Below, piece by piece: positions 8,130-24,863 of a stretch of DNA of 64,000 nucleotides. How positions within the stretch are numbered: position 1 is the first letter of the stretch; every line of letters begins with the position of its first letter. Location: contig NZ_JAUOTO010000002.1 in the NCBI RefSeq assembly GCF_030546645.1, forward strand, positions 558,001-622,000, given 5' to 3'. Source of the stretch: Flavitalea plasmicola. Lineage in GTDB: Bacteria; Bacteroidota; Bacteroidia; Chitinophagales; Chitinophagaceae. The position numbers and the translations under genes are program-made. A model generated the notes under the pieces. The model saw nothing but the letters and a program-made list of their open reading frames with translations. It had not been told where the DNA came from and did no database searches.

Positions 8130-11100
8130 TTAGAAGGTGACATTCAGACCCACGCTAAACGTCCGGGTGGTGGGATATTTATATGGGCTGTCCATTCCGG
8201 GATCAAGACCTGCCGTAGGCGTCTGGGCGACACCGGACTGTGCATAGGAAGTGCCGTTCCTCAGGCTGACTTCCGGATCGATGCCCTTATAACCCGTGAT
8301 GATAAATGCGTTCAGCACGGCCGCATACAGCCTGGCGGATTGAATATACCGCAAACCCGTATGGTTCCAGTTATAGCCCAGGGTAATGTTATCGATCTTC
8401 CAGTAATCGCCTTTCTCGATGTAATAGCTGTTGAACTCCACGGGAGACTTTAGCTGTGTTTTGCCAAACACTTTATCAAAAGCGTTGGTGAGGACATTGT
8501 ATTGGATCTGCGTGGGGTTTTCGAACATCATCCGCTGCAGATTGGCCACCTGGAATTTGAAGGCGCCCCGCTGGGTGATGCTGAGGTCCCAGTTCTTATA
8601 GCGGAAATTGTTGTTCCAGCCGAGGTAGAATTTGGGAAGACCGTTGCCGATGACCCGTTTGTCACCGAAGGAGTGAGTGAAATCGGAATACTTCACCGGC
8701 TTGCCATCACTGCCCTGGTAGACCCATTGACCGTAGTTGGCCACGTCGGATGGATCGTTCCCGATGTCGACCACTTTGAAACCATAGAAATCACCTACCG
8801 GGCCGCCTACCTTCAACAGGTGGGAGAAAGTCTGGATGGGCGGGAAGATGGCCCCTACCTGCAGGTAGTTGGTAGAGGTTTTGTATACGTCATTCGACAG
8901 GCTTTTCAGCTTATTGGTGTTGGTGGAGTAGCTGACGCTGGAATTCCATTCAAAGTCTTTTGACTTCACGGGAACAAAATTCAGCATGACCTCCACCCCT
9001 TTATTTTCCATGGTACCGACATTGGCCAGGGTCTGGCTATAAAGGTTCGGCGGGCTGGGTACGTCGTACAGGAACAACAAGTTATGGATCTGGCGGTTGT
9101 AGTAATCCACGCTGCCGCCGACGCGGTTCTGCAGGATGCTGAAATCAAGGCCGATGTTGGTTTCGCGTTTTTCTTCCCATTTCAGGTTGGGGTTGGCGTT
9201 CTGGCTGGGCGTCAGGGTTTGGATCCATACGCCATTGGAGAATACGAAACCGCCGTACCCGACAACGCCGACGCCCCGGAACAGGTCGGTGGGCTGGGAG
9301 CCCGTGACCCCATATCCCACGCGGAATTTCAGGTCGTCAAAGATCTTTTGTTCGCTCATGAAGCCTTCCCGGGAGATCCTCCAGCCGGCCGACACAGCCG
9401 GGAATGTGCCCCAGGGGTTCTTCGTTCCCCATAGCTGGCTGGCTTCCTCTCTTCTCACGCTGGCCATTAAAAGGTATTTTTCGTCGTAGTTATAGGTGAG
9501 CCTTCCGAAGAACCCGATGAGATTGGTTTCACTTTTGAAGTTTTTGATCAGGCCCTGGTAGAGGCCGCTGCTGATGGCCTGACCCAGACCGATGTTGTTC
9601 CATCCAAACCTGTCCGTTGGAAAATCCCAGTTCTCGGTGGAGTTGCTGGTGTAGATATTTTCCTGGTAGCTATAGCCGCCCAATAAAACCAGGTGGTGCT
9701 TATTAAAGGACCGGGTGTATTCGGCGGTGAGCTCGGCTAACCTGTCTATCGATTCGTCGCCTCCGATCTTCGCATATCCGTTCTTGCCGTCGCGCAGGGT
9801 GGACACGTGCTGTTTGGTTTCGGCATAGCCGTTCTCGCTGACTCTCTTGCCATAGGAAAATACGCCGGAGAGCTTCAGCCCTGTAACGGGCGTGAAGATG
9901 ATGGCCGACTTGTATCTTGCGTTGCTTTCGTTTGACTGGCCGTCGCTCTCCATCAGATCGGAAACAGGATTCTCGTAGTCGAATTTTGTCAGCTCCTGGA
10001 ACCAGGTGCCGTCGGCGTTCTTCAACGGTGACGTGGGATTTTGCATCGTGGCCTGGCGATAGATATTTGAGTTAAAGCCATTCCATTTGCGTGAGGAGCT
10101 GAACAGGTTGAGGTTGATCTTCAGCTTGTTGTCGAACATGCTGTGATTAAAGTCAGCCCTGCCGTTGAAGATCTGGTTGTAGGATTTTTTAAAGATGCCT
10201 TCCGCGTTATTATAGTTACCGCTGATGAGGTAGTTGGTGGTGGCATTGCCTCCCCGGAAAGTGAGGTTGTGCGACTGGATGACGGGGGTTCGGGTGATGG
10301 CCTTCAGCCAATCGGTGCTGGCCCCGTTGTCGGCCATTTCTGTCTTGCGGAAGCCGGCCTTGATCTGCGCCCGGAAGTCAGCTGCGGTGGAGAGATCCAG
10401 CTTTCTGGCGATGGTCTGTGTGCTGACGTAGCCACTGTACTCGACGCTGCTCTTGTTATTACCGCTGGCTCTCCGGGTGGTGATGAGGATCACGCCGTTG
10501 GTGCCCCGGGTGCCATAAATGGCGGCTGCGGAGCCGTCCTTCAGCACGTCGATGGATTCGATGTCCTGTGTTGCGACTGTCCTCAGGTCGCCGGGGATCC
10601 CATCGATCAGCACCAGGGGATTCTGGTTGGCGCCCATCAGGGTCGTTTGTCCCCGTAAGAGTATTTGTGTGCTTCCCGTTGGATCGCCATTGGGAGATAT
10701 GACGGACAGGCCGGCTACCTTACCCTGGATCAGCTGACCTGCATCCGTGACGGAGCCTTTGATAAAATTTTCCGCCTTCACCGTTGCCACGGCGCTTGTC
10801 AATTCTCCTTTGCGCTGGGTGCCATATCCAATGACGACTATTTGCTGGAGCTCTTTATTCACCAGCTGTAAGGATACCGACAGCGTTTTGTTGCCGTTGA
10901 GCGGGAGCTCCTGCGAGGCATAGCCGATCAGGCTGAATACGAGGGTCGCGTTGTCATTGGCTACGTTGATCGAAAAGGTACCGTCCTCTTTGGAAGCAGT
11001 TCCATTATTCGTGTTCTTTTCCCGGATAGTAACGCCGGAAAGCGCGTTGCCGGAGGCATCGGTGATCTTGCCGGTCACCGGCGTGGCAATTTCGGTGGTT

Positions 11101-11477
11101 TTACGGACCGCGACGGAATCCATGATGACAAACAGCCTGTCGTTCACCCGACGGTACGTCAACGGGCTGTTGAGCAATATGATCTTCATGACGTCGCCAA
11201 GAGATGCATTTTCGACGTTGACTGACAGCCGCTGCTCTTTGGGCAGGACGCTTGTCTTGTATACAAACCGGAAGGATCCCTGGTCCTCGATGGCCTTGAG
11301 AACATCCTTTATTGTCACATTATCAAGCCTTAAGGTAATATTTCCCTGACCATAGCTACTGGCAGCGGCCGGAAGGGTAAAGCCAATAATGAATATAATG
11401 GCAAGCTTCGTCATCAAGAAATATTTGAAGATTAACCTGGCTGCCGGGCACGGCAGTCCATGTCTTGTTTTTTTCAT
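8130..11477 (-). CDS. SusC/RagA TonB-dependent receptor with STN signalling domain (left PUL)
   Basis: The 1115-residue protein has a signal region (about 20-44), an STN domain (about 46-120, containing LKAIEDQGSFRFVYKTS), a carboxypeptidase-like regulatory domain (about 130-210), a plug with GYGTQRKGELTSAVATV and YGTRGTNGVILITT, and a beta-barrel ending in the C-terminal aromatic GLNVTF. It should import oligosaccharides across the outer membrane using TonB energy. The STN domain is the part that contacts a FecR-type anti-sigma factor, and fecR and an ECF sigma gene lie immediately upstream. The ATG at 11477 overlaps a plus-strand promoter-like element discussed under the antisense RNA candidate. 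Confidence 0.95.
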   Translation of the reverse strand: MKKTRHGLPCPAARLIFKYFLMTKLAIIFIIGFTLPAAASSYGQGNITLRLDNVTIKDVLKAIEDQGSFRFVYKTSVLPKEQRLSVNVENASLGDVMKIILLNSPLTYRRVNDRLFVIMDSVAVRKTTEIATPVTGKITDASGNALSGVTIREKNTNNGTASKEDGTFSINVANDNATLVFSLIGYASQELPLNGNKTLSVSLQLVNKELQQIVVIGYGTQRKGELTSAVATVKAENFIKGSVTDAGQLIQGKVAGLSVISPNGDPTGSTQILLRGQTTLMGANQNPLVLIDGIPGDLRTVATQDIESIDVLKDGSAAAIYGTRGTNGVILITTRRASGNNKSSVEYSGYVSTQTIARKLDLSTAADFRAQIKAGFRKTEMADNGASTDWLKAITRTPVIQSHNLTFRGGNATTNYLISGNYNNAEGIFKKSYNQIFNGRADFNHSMFDNKLKINLNLFSSSRKWNGFNSNIYRQATMQNPTSPLKNADGTWFQELTKFDYENPVSDLMESDGQSNESNARYKSAIIFTPVTGLKLSGVFSYGKRVSENGYAETKQHVSTLRDGKNGYAKIGGDESIDRLAELTAEYTRSFNKHHLVLLGGYSYQENIYTSNSTENWDFPTDRFGWNNIGLGQAISSGLYQGLIKNFKSETNLIGFFGRLTYNYDEKYLLMASVRREEASQLWGTKNPWGTFPAVSAGWRISREGFMSEQKIFDDLKFRVGYGVTGSQPTDLFRGVGVVGYGGFVFSNGVWIQTLTPSQNANPNLKWEEKRETNIGLDFSILQNRVGGSVDYYNRQIHNLLFLYDVPSPPNLYSQTLANVGTMENKGVEVMLNFVPVKSKDFEWNSSVSYSTNTNKLKSLSNDVYKTSTNYLQVGAIFPPIQTFSHLLKVGGPVGDFYGFKVVDIGNDPSDVANYGQWVYQGSDGKPVKYSDFTHSFGDKRVIGNGLPKFYLGWNNNFRYKNWDLSITQRGAFKFQVANLQRMMFENPTQIQYNVLTNAFDKVFGKTQLKSPVEFNSYYIEKGDYWKIDNITLGYNWNHTGLRYIQSARLYAAVLNAFIITGYKGIDPEVSLRNGTSYAQSGVAQTPTAGLDPGMDSPYKYPTTRTFSVGLNVTF

Positions 11478-11490
11478 ACTTTTGCAAGAG

Positions 11491-11580
11491 TTAAATGTTT
11501 AAGATTGGATAGCTTCCTACGGCTATTAACTGTCTTTTACTAATACGGAGAATGCTGCAAACATTCTCCGTTTCTGTTTT
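11491..11580 (+). ncRNA. Candidate cis-antisense sRNA opposite the susC leader (left PUL)
   Basis: On the plus strand a TACTTTTG box (11477-11484, fitting TAnnTTTG) is followed 61 nt later by a perfect 10-bp hairpin (11545-11554 with 11562-11571, loop 7 nt) and a T-rich tail. The predicted RNA of about 90 nt lies wholly in the gap between fecR and susC and is antisense to the susC leader. The same arrangement, with the same distances, occurs at the other PUL. Bacteroides PULs with ECF/anti-sigma control carry DonS-type antisense RNAs in this position. No -33 TTG box is seen, and the TAnnTTTG box partly coincides with the A-rich start region of susC, so the promoter is uncertain. Confidence 0.45.
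11545..11580 (+). terminator. Hairpin with T-rich tail between fecR and susC (left PUL)
   Basis: A perfect 10-bp inverted repeat (acggagaatg and cattctccgt, loop ctgcaaa) is followed on the plus strand by TTCTGTTTT. The minus-strand side lacks a T-tract, so the orientation points to termination of a plus-strand transcript. No plus-strand protein gene lies upstream that would need it. Confidence 0.65.
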
Positions 11581-11640: not shown

Positions 11641-12744
11641 TCAGGGTCTTATGATCACTTCATTTCGCCTGATGACATATTTGAAATTCCCGGATAATTG
11701 CAGGGCATACAATACCTCCGTCAGGTTGTCATCGCTGAACACGCCAGTGTATTCGATGTTCTTCAGCTCGTCACCTATAATGATCACTTTTACGCCGTAC
11801 CACCTTTCCAGCTTTAAGGCCACTTCGCTCAGCGTCTCTCCATCGAATACCAGCTTGTTCTTCGTCCATAGCATTTCCGTGGCAATGCTATCCTTATCCA
11901 GGTGATGGACCTGGGTAAGCGTCATGACCGCCGGCTTTTTGGGGACATTGACAGCATGAGCGCTGTCTTTGGAAAGCCAGGAGCTGTCGTTGCTGACGAC
12001 CAGCTTTTCATTGGGCTTTAACACGATCTTCTTGTCCGTGCTGGCTTTCAGCGTAATTTCCACTGCGCCCCTGATGAGGGCCGTTTCGGTGATCTTTTCC
12101 TCCGGATAGGATCGTACATTGAATGCAGTTCCCAGCACTTTTATGTCGATGGTCGCCGTATGAATGACAAAGGGGCGTGACGGGTCTTTTACAACGTCGA
12201 AGAAAGCCTCGCCTATGAGCCTGACCTGGCGGGAGGCGCTTCCGAAATCATTTTCATACGATATATTGCTGCCCGAGTTGAGCCAGACCTGCGTGCCGTC
12301 GGGTAGCTGCAGCTTGGATTTGGAACCGTTCTTCGTGCTGACGGAGTTGCCGCTGACAGCGGGAGTGGCGGGGTTTGGCAGATTGCCGCTGACGGAGAGG
12401 GCGTTGAACAGGACGATGGCTATGACAGCAGCAGCAGCCAGGCTGGCGGCTATAAAGAATATTCTTTGCGTTCCGGACGTTCTGCGGCGGACATCCGGAA
12501 TGGGCTGGAAAGGAGTGTTGTCTGCCGTACCATCGCTTAAACGTTGCAAATGCCTGTTGAACAGGTGATCCGTATCAGCCGGCGCCGGCGCTCCTTTACT
12601 TTTCCATATGGATTCCACGGATGCTGCCTGCTGCGCAAGATCCGGATGTTGTCGCAAAAGAAGTTCAAGCTCAGCCAATTCTTCGCCGGAAGCTTCTCCC
12701 GAGAGCTTTAGGATGAGCAGCTGCCACATTTTTTCATTGTCCAT
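11641..12744 (-). CDS. FecR-family anti-sigma factor (left PUL)
   Basis: The protein has 367 residues from the ATG at 12744; a longer frame begins with TTG at 12750 but the ATG (MDNEKMWQLL) is preferred. It has a cytoplasmic N-terminal part, one transmembrane helix near residues 85-108 (FFIAASLAAAAVIAIVLFNA) and a periplasmic FecR domain with LPDGTQVWLNSGSNISYEN and the terminal domain around LERWYGVKVIIIGDEL. FecR proteins pass a signal from the STN domain of the outer-membrane receptor to the ECF sigma factor. It sits between sigma and susC genes, 80 bp downstream of the sigma stop. Confidence 0.93.
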   Translation of the reverse strand: MDNEKMWQLLILKLSGEASGEELAELELLLRQHPDLAQQAASVESIWKSKGAPAPADTDHLFNRHLQRLSDGTADNTPFQPIPDVRRRTSGTQRIFFIAASLAAAAVIAIVLFNALSVSGNLPNPATPAVSGNSVSTKNGSKSKLQLPDGTQVWLNSGSNISYENDFGSASRQVRLIGEAFFDVVKDPSRPFVIHTATIDIKVLGTAFNVRSYPEEKITETALIRGAVEITLKASTDKKIVLKPNEKLVVSNDSSWLSKDSAHAVNVPKKPAVMTLTQVHHLDKDSIATEMLWTKNKLVFDGETLSEVALKLERWYGVKVIIIGDELKNIEYTGVFSDDNLTEVLYALQLSGNFKYVIRRNEVIIRP

Positions 12745-12824
12745 TCGCAAAGGCTATATCAATAGGACACAGGAAAGAGGAAGTTATACCAAAGGAGAAA
12801 AAAATAAATTGGGGGGCTTGAGAA

Positions 12825-17894: not shown

Positions 17895-19316
17895 TTAATA
17901 ATTGGGATTTTGTTTGATCTTATCATTGGAAATGATCTCGGCATCGGGAATGGGGAGCAGCAGGAGGTGCTTGTCTGTGATCGAAGGCAGCAGCCCCTGC
18001 AAGGTAGCAAAGGGCAGGCGCCGGACAGCCAGCCAATCCTGTCCATTCTCGGCTGCAAAGCTCTTCATCTCTTCTTCGATGATCAGCAGTTGGAGCTGTT
18101 CTGCGGATGCGGCGGCATCGACGCTGGAGAGATCGGTGAAGCCAGCATGGGTCATCACCGTCTTCAGCAATATCCTTGCATCAGTGAGGTCGCCGCCTGC
18201 GGCCACGATGGCTTCGGCCTGGAGCAGGTAGGCCTCCGTCAGCCGGAATGCATAACTATATTCCGATACGGGTGCGGCAGCAATATGATCCACCGAACCC
18301 GGGTAATATTTGGTAAGTCCTGTGTAAGGCCCATAGGGGGTAATAACCGTCTGTATATACCACTCGTCGCGGGGATCATTTTCGAAAAGACTTTTCATGA
18401 AATCGTTGGGGCCAAAGTCGTCATAGTTGATGTAGCTCAGCCATTTTGCAGTCTGATTGGGGTATGGCTGTACACCCAGCATGACCTCCGTACTCGTGAG
18501 GCCTTTTGACCAGAAGATGTCGCGGACGTTAGTTTCCAGCTGGAAAGGGCTATGGGCGATGATATCTTTTGTAAGGTTGATGACGGTTGTATAATCGGCA
18601 GGCAGGCCCCGGTTGATCAGCACTCTTGCCTTCAGCAATTTTGCCGCCCAGCTATTGGTATAAGCCATGATCGTATTGGTCCCCGGGAGGTCCGGGATGG
18701 CGGCGTCCAGGTCACCGAGGATGGCATCATAGGCGGCGCCGACTGTGGACCTGGGAAGGAAAATATTGTCCGGCTGTATGAATTCGTTGTGCAGGATGAT
18801 GCCATAGGGACTGGTGGTGTCGTCATACTGTCCATAATAGAGCAGCAGCTCGCTGTTGCCATATGCGCGGAGGAATTTTGCCTCGGCGATCATCCGGGTT
18901 TTTGCGGAGCTGGTGATCTTAGTCAGAGGTTCTATATTTTTCAGGAAGCCGTTGGCTGCGTTGACCAATGCATAGCCATAATTCCATTTAAAATCAATAC
19001 CATAAGTTTTGGCGTCGTAGGTATGCGCGCTGAGGAGGGGGCCGCCGTTGCTGTAATCGAAGAGGCCGCTCAGCTGGGATGGCGTCTCTTCATTCCCGGA
19101 GTACCATTGGGTCACCGGCACACCATTATAATCCACACCGGCATCGGCAAATCGATAATAGACTCCATTGAGCGCTGTTGTCGCGCTTTTCTCGTCGGTG
19201 ATGATATTGCCATCCACCTCTTTTGTGGTGGGGAAGACATTCAGCTGTTTTTTACAGCTGCCGGCGAACGATGCTGCCAGAACTAAAATGAACCATATTT
19301 TATGATTGATCTTCAT
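17895..19316 (-). CDS. SusD/RagB family outer-membrane lipoprotein (right PUL)
   Basis: The 473-residue protein has a lipoprotein signal peptide with lipobox FAGSC. The N-terminal SusD helices (KSATTALNGVYYRFAD, AKFLRAYGNSELLLYYGQY) and the C-terminal half with LTEAYLLQAEAIVAAGG and the terminal DAEIISNDKIKQNPNY are typical. It begins 18 bp after the susC stop and ends 11 bp before the thioredoxin-domain gene. It should form the surface lid of the cognate SusC. It is shorter than the left-PUL SusD (473 against 538) and not closely similar to it, so the two loci probably bind different ligands. Confidence 0.94.
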   Translation of the reverse strand: MKINHKIWFILVLAASFAGSCKKQLNVFPTTKEVDGNIITDEKSATTALNGVYYRFADAGVDYNGVPVTQWYSGNEETPSQLSGLFDYSNGGPLLSAHTYDAKTYGIDFKWNYGYALVNAANGFLKNIEPLTKITSSAKTRMIAEAKFLRAYGNSELLLYYGQYDDTTSPYGIILHNEFIQPDNIFLPRSTVGAAYDAILGDLDAAIPDLPGTNTIMAYTNSWAAKLLKARVLINRGLPADYTTVINLTKDIIAHSPFQLETNVRDIFWSKGLTSTEVMLGVQPYPNQTAKWLSYINYDDFGPNDFMKSLFENDPRDEWYIQTVITPYGPYTGLTKYYPGSVDHIAAAPVSEYSYAFRLTEAYLLQAEAIVAAGGDLTDARILLKTVMTHAGFTDLSSVDAAASAEQLQLLIIEEEMKSFAAENGQDWLAVRRLPFATLQGLLPSITDKHLLLLPIPDAEIISNDKIKQNPNY

Positions 19317-19333: not shown

Positions 19334-22300
19334 TTAGAAAGCGATCTTCACGCCCGCGGAAAAGGTCCTGACGGCGGGATAGTTACTCACGTCGAAATAG
19401 CCGCCGGACACGCTGTAGCTGTCGTCGGAGGTTTCCGGGTCATTCCCGGGGTATTTGGTGATGGTGAACAGGTTGGTGGCTGAGAGATATATAGAAGCCG
19501 CCTGTATACCCGCCTTTGTCATCCAGCTGCTCTTGTCAAAACGGTAGTTGAGCGTAGCCGTTCTCAATTTGAGGTACGAGGAGTTATAGATGCTCAGGTT
19601 CGTGTTGTAGATAAGCTGATCGCCCAACAATAGACGTGGTCTGTCGGAACCCGGATTCTGCGGCGTATAGCGTTTCAGCATATTGGCGTTGGCATTGGAA
19701 ATACCGTTGAAGGTCGTGCTGCTGACATCGTCTCCCCACATCAGCTTGCCGCCTTCCGAATACAGGAAGTAGAGGTTGAGGTCGAAATGCTTATAGCTGA
19801 AGGACTCGGTGAAGCCGCCAAAATATTTGGGCGCTCCGCTGCCGATGATCGTATGGAAATCGATGTAAGCGGCTCCCATGGAAGCATAGGTCACCGTGTC
19901 CAACTGGTACATCGGATCACCGATATCCAGGTATCTGAAATAGGCAGAGAAAAAGCCCAGCTTGCTTTTGTAATCATCCAGCTGTTTCTGGTCCCTGATG
20001 ATGCCGGTGACCTTCATCCCTGTGATGAGACCCAGCGGCTGTCCTTCAATAAGGGTGGTGTTCTGGTATTCTATCAACGACGGAGAGGTCAGCTGTGTAT
20101 TGAGATCGGCCGTTTTGCTCAGCTTTGTGATGATGGAGCGGTTCCAGGTGATATTCGCGGACATGTTCCAGCGGAAGTCCTTTGTTCGGACGATATCACC
20201 CTGGAGGGAAAGCTCGACACCCCGGTTGCGTATGCCCACGACATTGGCCAGCAAGGAAGCATAGGAGCTGCTGGGTGGAACGGGGAGGGACAACAGCGCG
20301 TCGTCGGTCTGCTTGTTGTAATAATCGAAAGTACCCTGCAGCCTGTTCTTAAAGAATGAGAAGTCCAGCCCCAGGTCCGTTTGTTTGGTCGTCTCCCATT
20401 TTACCGTGGGATTGCCCAGCTGATCCGGCACCAGGGCGTTGTTGCCCGCATAGGAATAGGGAGAATACAGTGTCCTGTATTTCTGGTCGCCTATGTTCTG
20501 ATTGCCTGTCAGACCATAGCTGCCCCGCAGCTTGATGTCCTCGATCCAGGACACTTTGTCCAGGAATTTTTCTTTCGAGAGGCGCCAGGCGATGGCGCCG
20601 GAGGGGAAATAGCCGAACTTATTATCAGGTCCGAACTTCGAGCTGCCGTCCGTACGTCCTGTAAAAGTAAAGAGGTACCTGTCCTTAAAAGTATAGTTGG
20701 CGCGCAGGTAATAGGACACCAGGTAGCTCTGCGGTTTGGATGGCTCGTCCCCCGTCGTGTACAGCGGGGTGATGGCCGAGCTGAGGCTATTGAGGACATT
20801 GTCATTGGGATAACCGGTGGCTGTCGCGCTGAAGAAGCTGGTCCTGATCGTCTCATACGAGGTCCCTGCCAGGATGTTGACGGCATGTTTGTCGTTCCAT
20901 TCTTTGGTATAGCCAAGTGTGTTCTCTATAAACCAGTCTGTAAAACGGCTGTTGCTGTTGCCTCCGATGCCGCCGTTGCTGGCGACATTTCCATAAAAGC
21001 TCCCGATCTGCAGGTAGCTGGGCGTATACAGGCGTTGGTTGTAGACCTGGCTATTCAGCGAGACGGTGCTTTTGAACTGAAGGCCGGGAGTGATGTCATA
21101 TACGGCACTGAGCGAACCCTGCAGGCTCGTCGTCTTGGAATTATTGGTGGCTGTCAGGAGGGCTATGGGGTTCTGAAAGCCCAGGTAGCTGTAACCGACG
21201 GTTGAAAAATTGGCAAAATTACCGGTGGAATCGTAAGGGCTATAGGTGGGTGGTGCTTTCAGCGCCTGGTCGTAGGCCCCGTTGGTGATGTTCTGATTGG
21301 TGGCGCCGATATTGAAATTGGTGATGAACCGGAACTTTTTGCTGATGTCGTTCTCCATGTTGATCTTACCCACCACCCTCTTGTAGTCCGAGCCAATGAT
21401 GATGCCGGGCGTGCTGGTGTAGGCGATGGATGAATAATAGCGGGAGGAGGCTCCCCCACCCTGTATGGACAGTTCCGCGGTGTGCGATACGGCTGAGCGT
21501 GTGACCTGGTCGATCCAGTCGGTGCTACCTGTTCCGAAAAAACCCTGCGGGTCGTTGACGATCTGGTCGGCCTGGGGGCGATGGGCCCTGCCCGCCTTGT
21601 CACGGGCTGCATTGTCATTCACGGCGGCTTCGGTCAGGAGCGTTTTATATTGATCAGCATTCAGCAGCTTGGGCCTTTTCATAATTTTGGTCAGCGTAGC
21701 GTAATAGTTGGCGGTGATCTGCGGCTTTGCATCCTTTTTGCCTTTTTTGGTCGTGATGATCACTACGCCGTTGGCCGCCTTGGAACCATAGATGGCTGAT
21801 GCGCTGGCATCCTTGAGGACGGAAATGGACTCGATATCATCCGGGTTGAGGCCGCCCAGGCTGTTGAGGCCATTGACGAATGCCGTGGACATACCCTGGC
21901 TGGATCCCCCCACACCGGCGATGTCGTTTCCCACGGGGCTGCCCACGTCATAGCCCTGGTTGATATAGTTCGATTGGACCTGTACGGGAACACCGTCGAT
22001 GACATAGAGGGGATCGTTCCCGCCGATGATGGAGGCAGTACCCCGGACGCGGATGCGTACGGCGCCGCCGGGCGTGCCGTCTGTCTTGGTGACCTGGACA
22101 CCGGCGGCCTTTCCTGCGATGGCATTATCCACGGTGTTGAAAGGAATGTCCTGCACATCTTTCCCGGATATGGTGGAGACGGAGCCGGTGAGATCCCGGC
22201 GTTGGGAAGAGCCATAGCCGATCATCACCACTTCATTGAGGTTGGAGGCCTGCGGTGTGAGCGCAATGGAGATATCAGTCAGCGTGCCTGTGACCTTATA

Positions 22301-22873
22301 GTTCTGTGTGCCGTAGCCAACGATGGAAAATTCCAATATATCCTTTTCATTGGCGGCAATGTTGAAGGACCCATCGGCTCTCGTCTGCGTACCTTTCTTC
22401 TGCGTCTTGTTGACCACGGAGACGCCGGCCAGCGGCTTTCCATCAGGGTCAGCGACCTTCCCTACGATCTCTTTTGGCGGAAGATGCAAGGTTGGGCTGA
22501 CGGACAAGGGGGCGGCACGCGGGCTGATGATGAGCATGCCTTCCATCAGCCGGAAATCAAAATTAGTGGAAGAAAGGGCCATTGAAAGCGCTTCGTCGAC
22601 ATCCGCATCCCGGACGACGACGGTGACACGACCGGCTTTCCGGATCAGGTCATTGTTGTAGAGGATCTCGATCCTGCCCTGGCGGCTGATCTCCGAGATC
22701 ACTTTTTCGAGGGGTTCATCATGCATTGTCAGGGTTATTCGCTGTGAGAACCCGGTGGCGGAAACATGAAGCGCTGTAACGAGCAAGATAGCGGCGGTTA
22801 ATCTCATACACCTGATCATTTGAGCATTGCTGCCTCTTATGAGGCGCAATAAGCAGTGGTCCAAAAAATTCAT
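19334..22873 (-). CDS. SusC/RagA TonB-dependent receptor with STN signalling domain (right PUL)
   Basis: The 1179-residue protein begins with a long N-terminal segment and hydrophobic signal (about 24-44). An STN domain follows (about 46-120, PLEKVISEISRQGRIEILYN), then a carboxypeptidase-like domain (about 134-210, GKVADPDGKPLAGVSVVNK), a plug with YGSSQRRDLTGSVSTISG and YGSKAANGVVIITTKKG, and a barrel ending GVKIAF. It should import an oligosaccharide and report occupancy through its STN domain to the FecR protein encoded upstream. The N-terminus is longer than a usual signal peptide, as is common for these receptors. The start codon overlaps a plus-strand TAnnTTTG box. Confidence 0.95.
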   Translation of the reverse strand: MNFLDHCLLRLIRGSNAQMIRCMRLTAAILLVTALHVSATGFSQRITLTMHDEPLEKVISEISRQGRIEILYNNDLIRKAGRVTVVVRDADVDEALSMALSSTNFDFRLMEGMLIISPRAAPLSVSPTLHLPPKEIVGKVADPDGKPLAGVSVVNKTQKKGTQTRADGSFNIAANEKDILEFSIVGYGTQNYKVTGTLTDISIALTPQASNLNEVVMIGYGSSQRRDLTGSVSTISGKDVQDIPFNTVDNAIAGKAAGVQVTKTDGTPGGAVRIRVRGTASIIGGNDPLYVIDGVPVQVQSNYINQGYDVGSPVGNDIAGVGGSSQGMSTAFVNGLNSLGGLNPDDIESISVLKDASASAIYGSKAANGVVIITTKKGKKDAKPQITANYYATLTKIMKRPKLLNADQYKTLLTEAAVNDNAARDKAGRAHRPQADQIVNDPQGFFGTGSTDWIDQVTRSAVSHTAELSIQGGGASSRYYSSIAYTSTPGIIIGSDYKRVVGKINMENDISKKFRFITNFNIGATNQNITNGAYDQALKAPPTYSPYDSTGNFANFSTVGYSYLGFQNPIALLTATNNSKTTSLQGSLSAVYDITPGLQFKSTVSLNSQVYNQRLYTPSYLQIGSFYGNVASNGGIGGNSNSRFTDWFIENTLGYTKEWNDKHAVNILAGTSYETIRTSFFSATATGYPNDNVLNSLSSAITPLYTTGDEPSKPQSYLVSYYLRANYTFKDRYLFTFTGRTDGSSKFGPDNKFGYFPSGAIAWRLSKEKFLDKVSWIEDIKLRGSYGLTGNQNIGDQKYRTLYSPYSYAGNNALVPDQLGNPTVKWETTKQTDLGLDFSFFKNRLQGTFDYYNKQTDDALLSLPVPPSSSYASLLANVVGIRNRGVELSLQGDIVRTKDFRWNMSANITWNRSIITKLSKTADLNTQLTSPSLIEYQNTTLIEGQPLGLITGMKVTGIIRDQKQLDDYKSKLGFFSAYFRYLDIGDPMYQLDTVTYASMGAAYIDFHTIIGSGAPKYFGGFTESFSYKHFDLNLYFLYSEGGKLMWGDDVSSTTFNGISNANANMLKRYTPQNPGSDRPRLLLGDQLIYNTNLSIYNSSYLKLRTATLNYRFDKSSWMTKAGIQAASIYLSATNLFTITKYPGNDPETSDDSYSVSGGYFDVSNYPAVRTFSAGVKIAF

Positions 22874-22886
22874 ACCTTTGGTTAGT

Positions 22887-22971
22887 TTGGTTAAACAATA
22901 AGCAATACAATAGCGCTTTACATGTTTTACCGATCTTTCGACCGGGAACGCGGCATCGTTCCCGGTTTTTT
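22887..22971 (+). ncRNA. Candidate cis-antisense sRNA opposite the susC leader (right PUL)
   Basis: A plus-strand TACCTTTG box (22873-22880) is followed 61 nt later by a perfect 10-bp hairpin (22941-22950 with 22957-22966, loop 6 nt) and five T residues. A transcript starting about 7 nt after the box would be about 85 nt long and complementary to the susC leader. Distance from susC start codon to hairpin (68 nt) and from box to hairpin (61 nt) are the same as at the left PUL although the sequence between differs. This resembles DonS-type antisense RNAs of Bacteroides PULs. No -33 box is apparent. Confidence 0.5.
22941..22971 (+). terminator. Rho-independent terminator between fecR and susC (right PUL), plus strand
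   Basis: The inverted repeat accgggaacg/cgttcccggt has a 6-nt loop and is followed on the plus strand by TTTTT. On the minus strand the downstream flank is cgaaagatcgg, without a T-tract, so it is not an obvious terminator for the sigma/fecR transcript. Confidence 0.75.
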
Positions 22972-23037
22972 ACGGCAACACGTAATGGATCATCGATCAT
23001 CATTGGATAAGATAAAGCAACAATGGCAAGACGGAGG

Positions 23038-24210
23038 TCAGATGGATCTTGGCAAGACCTTTACTTCTTTGTTCTGCACGGAGAATTCCACTCCTCCTGC
23101 AGCCTGGAGCATTTTTAAAACCTGAGATATATTTACCTGACGGCTTATCTTACCGGTGTAGTGGTCACTTACCGCACCATCAAAATGAACATCAATATCG
23201 TACCAGCGTGAGAGCTGTCGCATGATCGAGGTGAGCTCATCTCCGCGGAAAAGAAAATTGCCTTCTTTCCAGGCAATGACCTTTTGCAGGTCCACGGCAG
23301 GATTGAGCTCCAGCCTGCCGTCGCTTTTTGCGATCAGCTGCTGGCCGGGCGTAAGCAGCTTTGCAGCAGATCCGCTGACCACTTTGACCGATCCTTCCAT
23401 GAGGGTGGTGCTGACGGCATCCTCATCGCTGTAGGCCGTGATATTAAAGCTGGTCCCCAGCACCTGTATCTCAAGTGGATCAGAATGTAATGTTCTGACG
23501 ATAAATGGCTGGGATGGATGTTTTGCCACTTCGAACCAGGCTTCTCCGGAGATCTCCACCACCCGGGTGCCTGCAGTAAAAGCTGTAGGGAATTTTATGG
23601 AGGATGCCGCATTGAGCCATACGCGCGTACCGTCGGACAATACGACGCTGGTCCTTCTTCCCCGGGGTGTGGAGAGAGTGTTGTACATTACTTCAGCGGC
23701 GGCGGTCGTTTCGGCCTGGTAGGTCAGCTCGCCTGCGCCGAGCTTTGTTATGGCCGTATTGCCTTGCTTTGCGAGCGTCCCCTTGCTGCTGCTGTCGAGG
23801 ACGATCTGCTTGCCATCGGCCAGCGTAAGGATGGCGCCCTCATGTCCCGGCGCAACGTCGTGCGCGGCTTGCTGTGCAACACCCGGCTGCGTACCGGGCC
23901 TGCCTGCGCGCCAAAGCCAGAAACCGCCGGCCAGCAAGAGAAGGATGGCCGCTGCCGCGGCATACCGGGGCAAGGATATACGCCTGGGAGGAGCTATCCT
24001 CCTGTCGAGATGGGACAAGATAGCTTCTTTTACGCGCGGTTCGCCCAGGCCCGCAAAATCATCGGATGTCATCACCTGCCGGACAAAGTCTTCCAGCGTC
24101 CCTTCATTTCCCGGCAGATCGATGAGCTCCGCCAGGCGGATCCTTTCGGAGGGAGAAAGCTCCCCTGTGGTGTACTTATCCAATAAAACTGCGAGCTCCT
24201 GGTTGTCCAT
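23038..24210 (-). CDS. FecR-family anti-sigma factor (right PUL)
   Basis: The 390-residue protein has a cytoplasmic N-terminal part, a transmembrane helix around residues 80-102 (YAAAAAILLLLAGGFWLW) and a periplasmic FecR domain with LADGKQIVLDSSSKG, LSDGTRVWLNAASSIKFP and GEAWFEVAKHPSQPFIV. The C-terminal domain (LSRWYDIDVHFDGAV) is the part expected to meet the STN domain of the receptor. It lies 65 bp after the ECF sigma stop and 164 bp before susC; that gap holds the antisense RNA candidate. Confidence 0.93.
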   Translation of the reverse strand: MDNQELAVLLDKYTTGELSPSERIRLAELIDLPGNEGTLEDFVRQVMTSDDFAGLGEPRVKEAILSHLDRRIAPPRRISLPRYAAAAAILLLLAGGFWLWRAGRPGTQPGVAQQAAHDVAPGHEGAILTLADGKQIVLDSSSKGTLAKQGNTAITKLGAGELTYQAETTAAAEVMYNTLSTPRGRRTSVVLSDGTRVWLNAASSIKFPTAFTAGTRVVEISGEAWFEVAKHPSQPFIVRTLHSDPLEIQVLGTSFNITAYSDEDAVSTTLMEGSVKVVSGSAAKLLTPGQQLIAKSDGRLELNPAVDLQKVIAWKEGNFLFRGDELTSIMRQLSRWYDIDVHFDGAVSDHYTGKISRQVNISQVLKMLQAAGGVEFSVQNKEVKVLPRSI

Positions 24211-24275: not shown

Positions 24276-24863
24276 TTACAAAAAAAAGAAAAAGGCCAGG
24301 GTCAGGTAGCCCAGATCGCGGAGCCAGCCCCGCAGGAAGTTCAATGCGATGACCATGTGGACCTTTACGGTATTTTTGGAAAGGCCCAGCTGTTGGGCGA
24401 TCTCCTCATGGGAAAGTCCTTCCAGCCTGCTGAGCTTAAAAACGAGCTTTTGCTGGGGAGTGAGATGCTCTATGCCTTCCATGAGCATCTTATACGCATC
24501 CTTCCCTTCCAACCGGAGGTCCGGGGACAGCATGTCTTCGCGGAGCGCGGCGGCGTCGGCAGCGGCCGTTTCTATTATCTTTTTCCGCAGGGCAGCAATG
24601 ACCTGGTTGCGCCCCACCACATAAATGTAATTTGAAAAATGCCGGACCTCCCTGAGCTTTTCCCTTTGCAGCCAGATCTTCAAAAAGATGTCCTGTGTGA
24701 GTTCCTGCGCGACAGGAGGAGATTTCACCAGGGCCAGCGTATTGAAATATACCCGGCTCCAATATGCTTCCACCAGCGTCCGGAAAGCCTTTTCGTCGCC
24801 CGCAGCGGCAGCCTCCAGGATCTGTCGTTCGTCCTCTATGTCGTTTTGGTGTATGTCGATCAT
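24276..24863 (-). CDS. ECF-type sigma-70 factor (right PUL)
   Basis: The 195-residue protein starts at an ATG. Region 2 is seen in VAQELTQDIFLKIWLQREKL and region 4 in LEGLSHEEIAQQLGLSKNTVKVHM. The C-terminus continues with a short hydrophobic tail (GYLTLAFFFFL), which is unusual for a soluble sigma factor and could touch the membrane or its anti-sigma partner. It is the first gene of the right-hand sigma/fecR/susCD cassette. Confidence 0.92.
   Translation of the reverse strand: MIDIHQNDIEDERQILEAAAAGDEKAFRTLVEAYWSRVYFNTLALVKSPPVAQELTQDIFLKIWLQREKLREVRHFSNYIYVVGRNQVIAALRKKIIETAAADAAALREDMLSPDLRLEGKDAYKMLMEGIEHLTPQQKLVFKLSRLEGLSHEEIAQQLGLSKNTVKVHMVIALNFLRGWLRDLGYLTLAFFFFL

Follow-up and report, generated by a model that had tools for sequence, protein, structure and literature searches.

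How Bacteroidota silence so many of their outer-membrane transporters is a standing question, and ECF/FecR/SusC uptake systems can number dozens in members of the phylum, the genome studied here having 69 fecR loci. DonS-type RNAs are tied to operons regulated by an ECF sigma factor and its anti-sigma factor. A sequence-only reading of the window, the whole stretch of 64,000 nt from Flavitalea plasmicola analysed here, had proposed that an RNA of this type is encoded opposite the leader of one susC gene, and the question raised by the locus is whether the gap between fecR and susC, read on the plus strand, is a small RNA gene. On the side of sequence the DonS-like reading of the gap is supported: it is probably a small RNA gene of the DonS type, the product of which would lower susC expression in cis by pairing with the susC leader. 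The promoter box, the terminator, the fold and its strand, the conservation and the gene context that underlie this reading are observed in the DNA itself.

In Bacteroides, DonS family members are cis-antisense RNAs of 78-128 nt that are divergent to susC homologues and reduce their expression; a sigma-ABfr promoter accompanies 52% of the cis-antisense candidates of B. thetaiotaomicron, and the same report cautions that some antisense candidates may be non-functional (PMC7366714). In B. thetaiotaomicron, 32 PUL-associated antisense RNAs show both correlation and anti-correlation with their susC partners (PMC10994844). A further study, in the passages cited here, describes the mechanism of DonS as unknown and presents FopS of B. 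thetaiotaomicron, 14 paralogous sRNAs that are aimed at the 5' end of susC mRNAs and repress other loci, binding near the start codon (PMC11697453). In F. psychrophilum, 287 antisense regions over 281 genes were ascribed mostly to imperfect termination and non-canonical starts, and the passages of that study cited here report them without naming a susC class (PMC9723704). Among the matches listed in a search of the open-licence literature, no paper dealt with such RNAs in Chitinophaga-like bacteria.

The fecR-susC gap of the window

Pfam matches at the locus follow the order ECF sigma factor, FecR, SusC-type receptor with an STN domain, SusD and a double thioredoxin protein, after which a GH127 enzyme comes next; the label PUL for this locus is uncertain. 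The features of the gap and its neighbours are collected in Table 1.

Table 1. Features of the fecR-susC gap and neighbouring genes, in window coordinates; R1 is the RNA model described in the text.
Feature	Position	Strand	Basis or remark
susC-type TonB-dependent receptor (STN, plug, barrel)	19334..22873	-	Pfam; leader is the putative antisense target
fecR-type anti-sigma factor	23038..24210	-	Pfam
ECF sigma factor	24276..24863	-	Pfam
susD-type lipoprotein	17895..19316	-	Pfam
Antisense RNA, predicted, about 85 nt	22885..22971	+	Start predicted from box, end at T run; R1 match 74.2 bits, 22871-22975
Closing stem, 5' arm	22887..22897	+	Single-sequence fold; outer pairs of the model lie a few bases earlier, same GGU/ACC core
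Closing stem, 3' arm	22923..22933	+	Single-sequence fold and model
Intrinsic terminator stem-loop, 10-bp perfect stem, 6-nt loop	22941..22966	+	Sequence and fold
Terminator T run	22966..22971	+	Sequence; five T after stem
Candidate -7 promoter box TACCTTTG (TAnnTTTG) of the antisense RNA	22873..22880	+	Overlaps susC start codon
Expected -33 position, reads TAAG	22850..22853	+	TTTG there in 15/79 family copies
Second, more diverged copy of the unit	11475..11580	+	R1 match 32.2 bits

The plus-strand terminator described in the sequence-only reading, with a 10-bp perfect stem and a tail of five T, was recovered as described, its arms at 22941-22950 and 22957-22966 being perfectly complementary around a loop at 22951-22956. 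A consensus terminator scan returned 38 sites in 18 kb, with 18.3 expected, and the window hairpin is absent from its list, perhaps because a G-T pair extends the stem and leaves four T. The TAnnTTTG box postulated before the terminator is present as well, at a distance of 60 nt from the stem and not the 61 nt given earlier, and in its first two letters TACCTTTG is complementary to the A of the susC ATG and the T preceding it (CAT at 22871-22873). The sigma-ABfr consensus combines TAnnTTTG with a TTTG near -33 (PMC7366714); the window copy has no TTTG at the expected -33 site, in agreement with the earlier remark that a -33 box is missing. The flavobacterial promoter box lies at -12 to -5 (PMC9723704), which places the predicted start of the antisense RNA at about 22885 and, with its end at the T run, gives a length of about 85 nt and complementarity to the susC leader, as had been proposed. 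Rfam 15 gave no match for the whole window at the gathering threshold, nor for 10 of the loci at E <= 0.1.

In the nearest named relative, Sphingobacteriales bacterium 50-39 (MKTZ01000004.1), the orthologous SusC is 82% identical, and 91 of the 98 aligned bases of 22873-22971 are identical (92.9%, one gap). Outside the unit, identity is 70.8% in fecR, 69.7% in the rest of the gap and 65.5% in susC codons 24-125, and codons 2-23 of susC differ by 45 gap columns. Comparison of window and ortholog thus delimits a conserved block with approximate limits at the start codon and the T run; the single change in its stem makes a G-U pair in the antisense RNA, where the leader would have A-C. The hairpin, whose conservation at orthologous fecR-susC gaps had been put forward as a check on the proposal, is kept in this ortholog, in the paralogues and in relatives.

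Terminators and promoter boxes at the fecR loci of the genome

The 8.73-Mb genome contains 80 FecR_C matches, and the exclusion of 11 that lie within SusC-length frames left the 69 fecR loci. After three with a negative gap or a gap above 500 nt were dropped, 66 gaps of 0-500 nt remained, 44 of at least 90 nt and 22 shorter, each measured from fecR to the first ATG of the next ORF of 200 codons or more on the same strand; these downstream ORFs are called susC by position, the Pfam check covering the window ORF only. At dG <= -13 kcal/mol, an antisense terminator is present in 38 of the 44 gaps of 90-500 nt and absent from six, as against a sense terminator in 2 of the same 44 and 1.8 of 44 for dinucleotide shuffles, from which it follows that the antisense hairpin in the fecR-susC gap is not a product of chance. 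A sense terminator of the fecR operon was rejected on the same sense count. The hairpins are often alike within the genome (GCCGGGAGTG...CACTTCCGGT).

In the gaps of 0-89 nt, an antisense terminator was found in 1 of 22. Nearly all the genes downstream of these short gaps are without the unit, and many of them seem, by eye, to have a shorter N-terminus. The two classes of ECF/FecR systems, with gaps below 90 nt and with longer ones, may be differently regulated.

The fusion of box and start codon (CATAnnTTTG) is found at 23 of the 39 hairpin-bearing loci, at none of the 30 starts scored without a hairpin and at none of 235 mechanical ORF starts (>=200 aa, uncurated, from 400 kb of the genome); the RNA model does detect the unit in two of the 30, L019 and L075, where the first-ATG rule mispredicted the start. 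The earlier reservation that TAnnTTTG could arise by chance from an A-rich start region does not hold up against the 235 ORF starts. A T precedes the ATG in 37 of the 39 hairpin-bearing loci. Scanned over 79 extended copies of the family, the -33 TTTG stands out at a single offset 23 nt upstream of the box (15 copies); the next best, close to the start codon, has 6, and all others have at most 3. Between predicted ends, the unit has an estimated median length of 91 nt in this genome, with a range of 19-128 nt whose low end belongs to a locus with a mispredicted start codon (L018). No statement of a promoter-start codon fusion was found in the literature searched, which did not cover Cao et al. 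(2016).

An insulating terminator against stray antisense transcription, paired with a promoter-like box that is there by chance, would suit the observation that antisense transcription is common in flavobacteria (PMC9723704). Box and hairpin, however, co-occur in a fixed order around a body that is itself conserved and folded, which leaves this explanation scarcely credible.

Fold, strand and copies of the unit

The stretch 22886-22970 folds on the plus strand with -29.1 kcal/mol (z -4.9). The copies fold as a 5' closing stem (UUUGGGUUAA with UUAACCCAAA in typical ones), a variable loop and the terminator. Many copies within the genome, L029, L025, L070 and L079 among them, have a near-constant loop motif, AATAAGCAGTC, for which a protein site and a seed are candidate roles.

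From the 39 copies, the 18 that align better were aligned with MAFFT, RNAalifold returned 19 pairs for them, and the covariance model R1 was built from these 18 rows. This unfitted alignment contains 35 double-change cells, compared with 9.4 (sd 2.6) when shuffled; by a weak measure, 10 pairs have double changes compared with 6.1 in shuffles, 8 of 500 shuffles being as high, and one version of a slid control has 11 double-change pairs. Applied to 100 of the 259 loci collected, among them loci fetched by R1 and its 18 building rows, R1 matched 80 stretches, of which 79 are distinct, and 94.3% of cells are paired. In the resulting 80-row alignment, which is fitted to the antisense model R1 and leans towards it, all 19 pairs have double (compensatory) changes, and double-change cells number 217, compared with 40.5 (sd 5.6) in shuffled and at most 63 in slid alignments.

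Strand was judged from the same fitted alignment, so that the strand counts share its leaning towards R1: the consensus energy is -25.6 kcal/mol for the antisense and -9.2 kcal/mol for the sense strand, in each of the 79 distinct rows the antisense strand has the better fold, and A-C cells number 8, compared with 66 in shuffles, while G-U cells number 240, compared with 264. An earlier count of 59 G-U to 7 A-C was set aside because its hairpins had been picked by antisense folding. Strand energies and A-C depletion together indicate that the folded product is most likely an antisense RNA. A conserved element acting in the susC mRNA leader, as an attenuator or a structured 5' UTR, with the antisense terminator as a side effect of its inverted repeats, would draw on the fact that inverted repeats fold on both strands (z -3.8 for the sense strand of the window), yet 38 of the 44 longer gaps have a T tail behind the antisense hairpin and 2 behind a sense hairpin, there is a deficit of A-C cells, and every row gives the lower energy to the antisense strand; such a leader element is very unlikely. 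A sense-leader structure as the element under selection is likewise disfavoured by the strand statistics.

The fold also bears on transcriptional interference, in which polymerase collision or promoter occlusion would do the work, the RNA would be a by-product and the terminator would protect fecR. The unit varies least in its promoter box and its terminator, and the latter lies between susC and fecR in all 39 units measured, as interference would have it; interference needs no folded RNA, however, and yet the closing stem covaries and the antisense strand folds. Selection on the fold itself favours a pairing RNA as the explanation, and pure polymerase interference is considered unlikely.

A search of the genome (8.7 Mb, E <= 1) with R1, in which 150 of 2022 first-look candidates were scored, listed at least 33 places, and every one of the 33 listed matches is found on the strand opposite to a FecR_C match and 5-137 nt downstream of it. 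About 41 of the 69 fecR loci carry the unit, 39 by hairpin and L019 and L075 by model. The second copy in the window, missed by this genome-wide listing and found by a search of the window only, is opposite the start of ORF 8130-11477, its box merging with that start codon; this ORF is susC by position and lies directly downstream of a FecR_C gene (ORF 11641-12750).

Copies in such number could also form a trans-acting family of paralogous sRNAs in the manner of FopS, the members of which would silence each other's susC leaders and so establish a hierarchy among dozens of uptake systems. Consistent with such a family are the approximately 41 copies among 69 fecR loci, a 5' end and a loop motif that part of them share, as are 30 of 1332 cross pairs that beat all 2220 background pairs under an energy function that ignores internal folding. 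A cross target beyond background was found for only 8 of 37 RNAs, however, and each listed copy lies opposite its own neighbour gene, so that a family of this kind is distinctly improbable. Trans-regulation by cross-pairing is disfavoured, with just those 30 pairs and 8 RNAs beyond background.

Proposed mechanism, range and relation to known systems

The preferred reading, a DonS-type antisense RNA acting in cis, predicts that the RNA is transcribed and that it lowers susC expression through leader pairing. The housekeeping sigma factor would make the antisense RNA while the operon is off, from a housekeeping-type promoter whose -7 box overlies the susC start codon, read as its reverse complement. 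Antisense transcription would run away from susC through its leader and stop at the intrinsic terminator before fecR, yielding an RNA of about 85 nt complementary to the leader from about -12 to -96, the pairing of which would block ribosome loading or trigger decay and thereby silence leaky or read-through susC mRNA. On release of the ECF sigma factor by FecR, sense transcription, which crosses the antisense promoter, would overrun the RNA. The weakest step is the point at which the sense susC transcript starts: the terminator stem ends 4-7 nt past the fecR stop in 3 of 39 paralogues, so the susC leader may start inside fecR or be read-through, and a susC start inside the antisense gene would make the pairing short.

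Among 98 genomes of relatives, the genome studied here included, 40 match R1 at E <= 0.01, 39 of them in the window's family, and one weak match falls in another family of the order. An even draw across the phylum at the same limit gave R1 matches in at least 32 of 395 genomes, from the window's family and families f23, f25, f45 and f47 of the same class, and no match outside the class is among those listed. A second model, R2, built from the 80 rows, matched at least 31 of 396 genomes of the class at E <= 0.001, in the same families plus f87; the two surveys differ in draw and E limit, and nine candidates were scored per genome in each, which makes the counts lower bounds. Given these limits of the surveys, distant families were judged by architecture. 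Eight of 10 chosen genomes match R2 at E <= 0.01, with 43 matches in one genome of the family, 37 and 22 in two of the same genus, 1-4 in each of four genomes of other families and none in two of family f46. The highest number among the 10, 84 R2 matches, was seen in a further genome of the same genus (G023; 8.1 Mb, 6% contamination).

The architecture test applied dG <= -11 kcal/mol (as against -13 in the home genome), a limit chosen after the results there, to gaps of 90-500 nt without shuffles, in 67 loci and then in 40 loci from four FecR-rich genomes picked among 49 with matches. Antisense terminators were found in 10 of 11 gaps in f25 (sense 3/11; exact fused box 4/11, by eye), in 6 of 7 in f23 (sense 1/7; exact fused box 2/7, by eye), in 2 of 3 in other genomes of the window's family, one of these hairpins lying inside a coding stretch, and in 3 of 6 in five further families pooled (sense 1/6). 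In f47, 15 of 21 gaps have an antisense terminator and 15 of 21 a fused box, with no sense terminator and six gaps without an antisense one; the corresponding figures for f46 are 6 of 12 and 2 of 12, again with no sense terminator and six without. A single case outside the class, L187 (genome G129, family f31, another class of the phylum), has CATAACTTTG on the start codon and an antisense terminator of -23.0 kcal/mol in a fecR-downstream gap.

Like DonS, the unit of the window is antisense to the 5' region of a susC homologue and divergent from it, its RNA of about 85 nt, between predicted ends, falls within the DonS size range, and its context is that of an ECF sigma factor and FecR, as is that of the listed matches, each beside a FecR_C gene. 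With respect to the sigma-ABfr promoter, the -7 box is present in the window copy and the -33 TTTG, found in a minority of the family, is absent from it. The anatomy of DonS is also seen in named loci of Bacteroides finegoldii and Parabacteroides distasonis. Unlike DonS, in a comparison by description and not by sequence, the copies in the window's family form a covarying RNA family of closing stem plus terminator outside Rfam, some 41 of them in one genome, and R1 matches the gut loci weakly, in 2 of 16. The earlier suggestion that the same logic operates here with an unrelated sequence stands in part: the copies of the window's family are one recognisable RNA family, and weak matches to it reach two gut loci. 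The units resemble FopS as multicopy paralogous RNAs linked to the 5' end of susC mRNAs, and differ from it in lying opposite their own neighbour gene and beginning about 12 nt upstream of its start.

The kind of RNA is thus already known from Bacteroides; to this the present analysis adds that it occurs, and is abundant, in the window's family and other families of the class, that its fold covaries and that its promoter is fused with the start codon. This suggests that the RNA switches of gut Bacteroides are part of a wider, older group. A broader proposal, the chances of which appear evenly balanced, is that susC genes under ECF/FecR control have, in much of Bacteroidia, a start codon that is at the same time part of an antisense -7 element, so that one DNA word would specify both the start of SusC translation and the start of its own silencing RNA; the DonS RNAs of the gut would on this view represent a single branch of an ancient layer of RNA control, which in the window's family takes the form of a covarying structured RNA found dozens of times per genome, every copy setting a threshold for its uptake system. 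With a covariance model and a sequence-definable candidate antisense RNA at most long-gap loci, the silencing of these transporters becomes a testable question in gut and other species.

For the gut loci, 16, from Bacteroides finegoldii, Parabacteroides distasonis and Phocaeicola massiliensis, were fetched from 30 matches listed in 235 PLSDB records; 15 were scored (L338 gave no downstream ORF), and 11 have a gap of at least 90 nt. A distant-mode search of plasmid records with the DNA of the window unit gave no match. Antisense terminators are present in 8 of the 11 gaps and absent from three, and sense terminators are found in none. The two weak R1 matches have E values of 2.6e-4 (P. distasonis) and 0.003 (B. 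finegoldii). The PLSDB records concerned (OY7257xx-OY7260xx, from all three species) look like chromosome fragments, with ordinary metabolic genes and plasmid numbers that reach 56 in one strain. Four loci (L329, L334, L335 and L336) have the box fused to the annotated start, and three others have it on an in-frame ATG that precedes the annotated receptor start, by 123 nt in L328 and 69 nt in L330 (B. finegoldii) and by 54 nt in L332 (P. distasonis), which suggests that these three annotated starts are too far downstream. As in these three loci, the box can serve as a marker for susC start codons.
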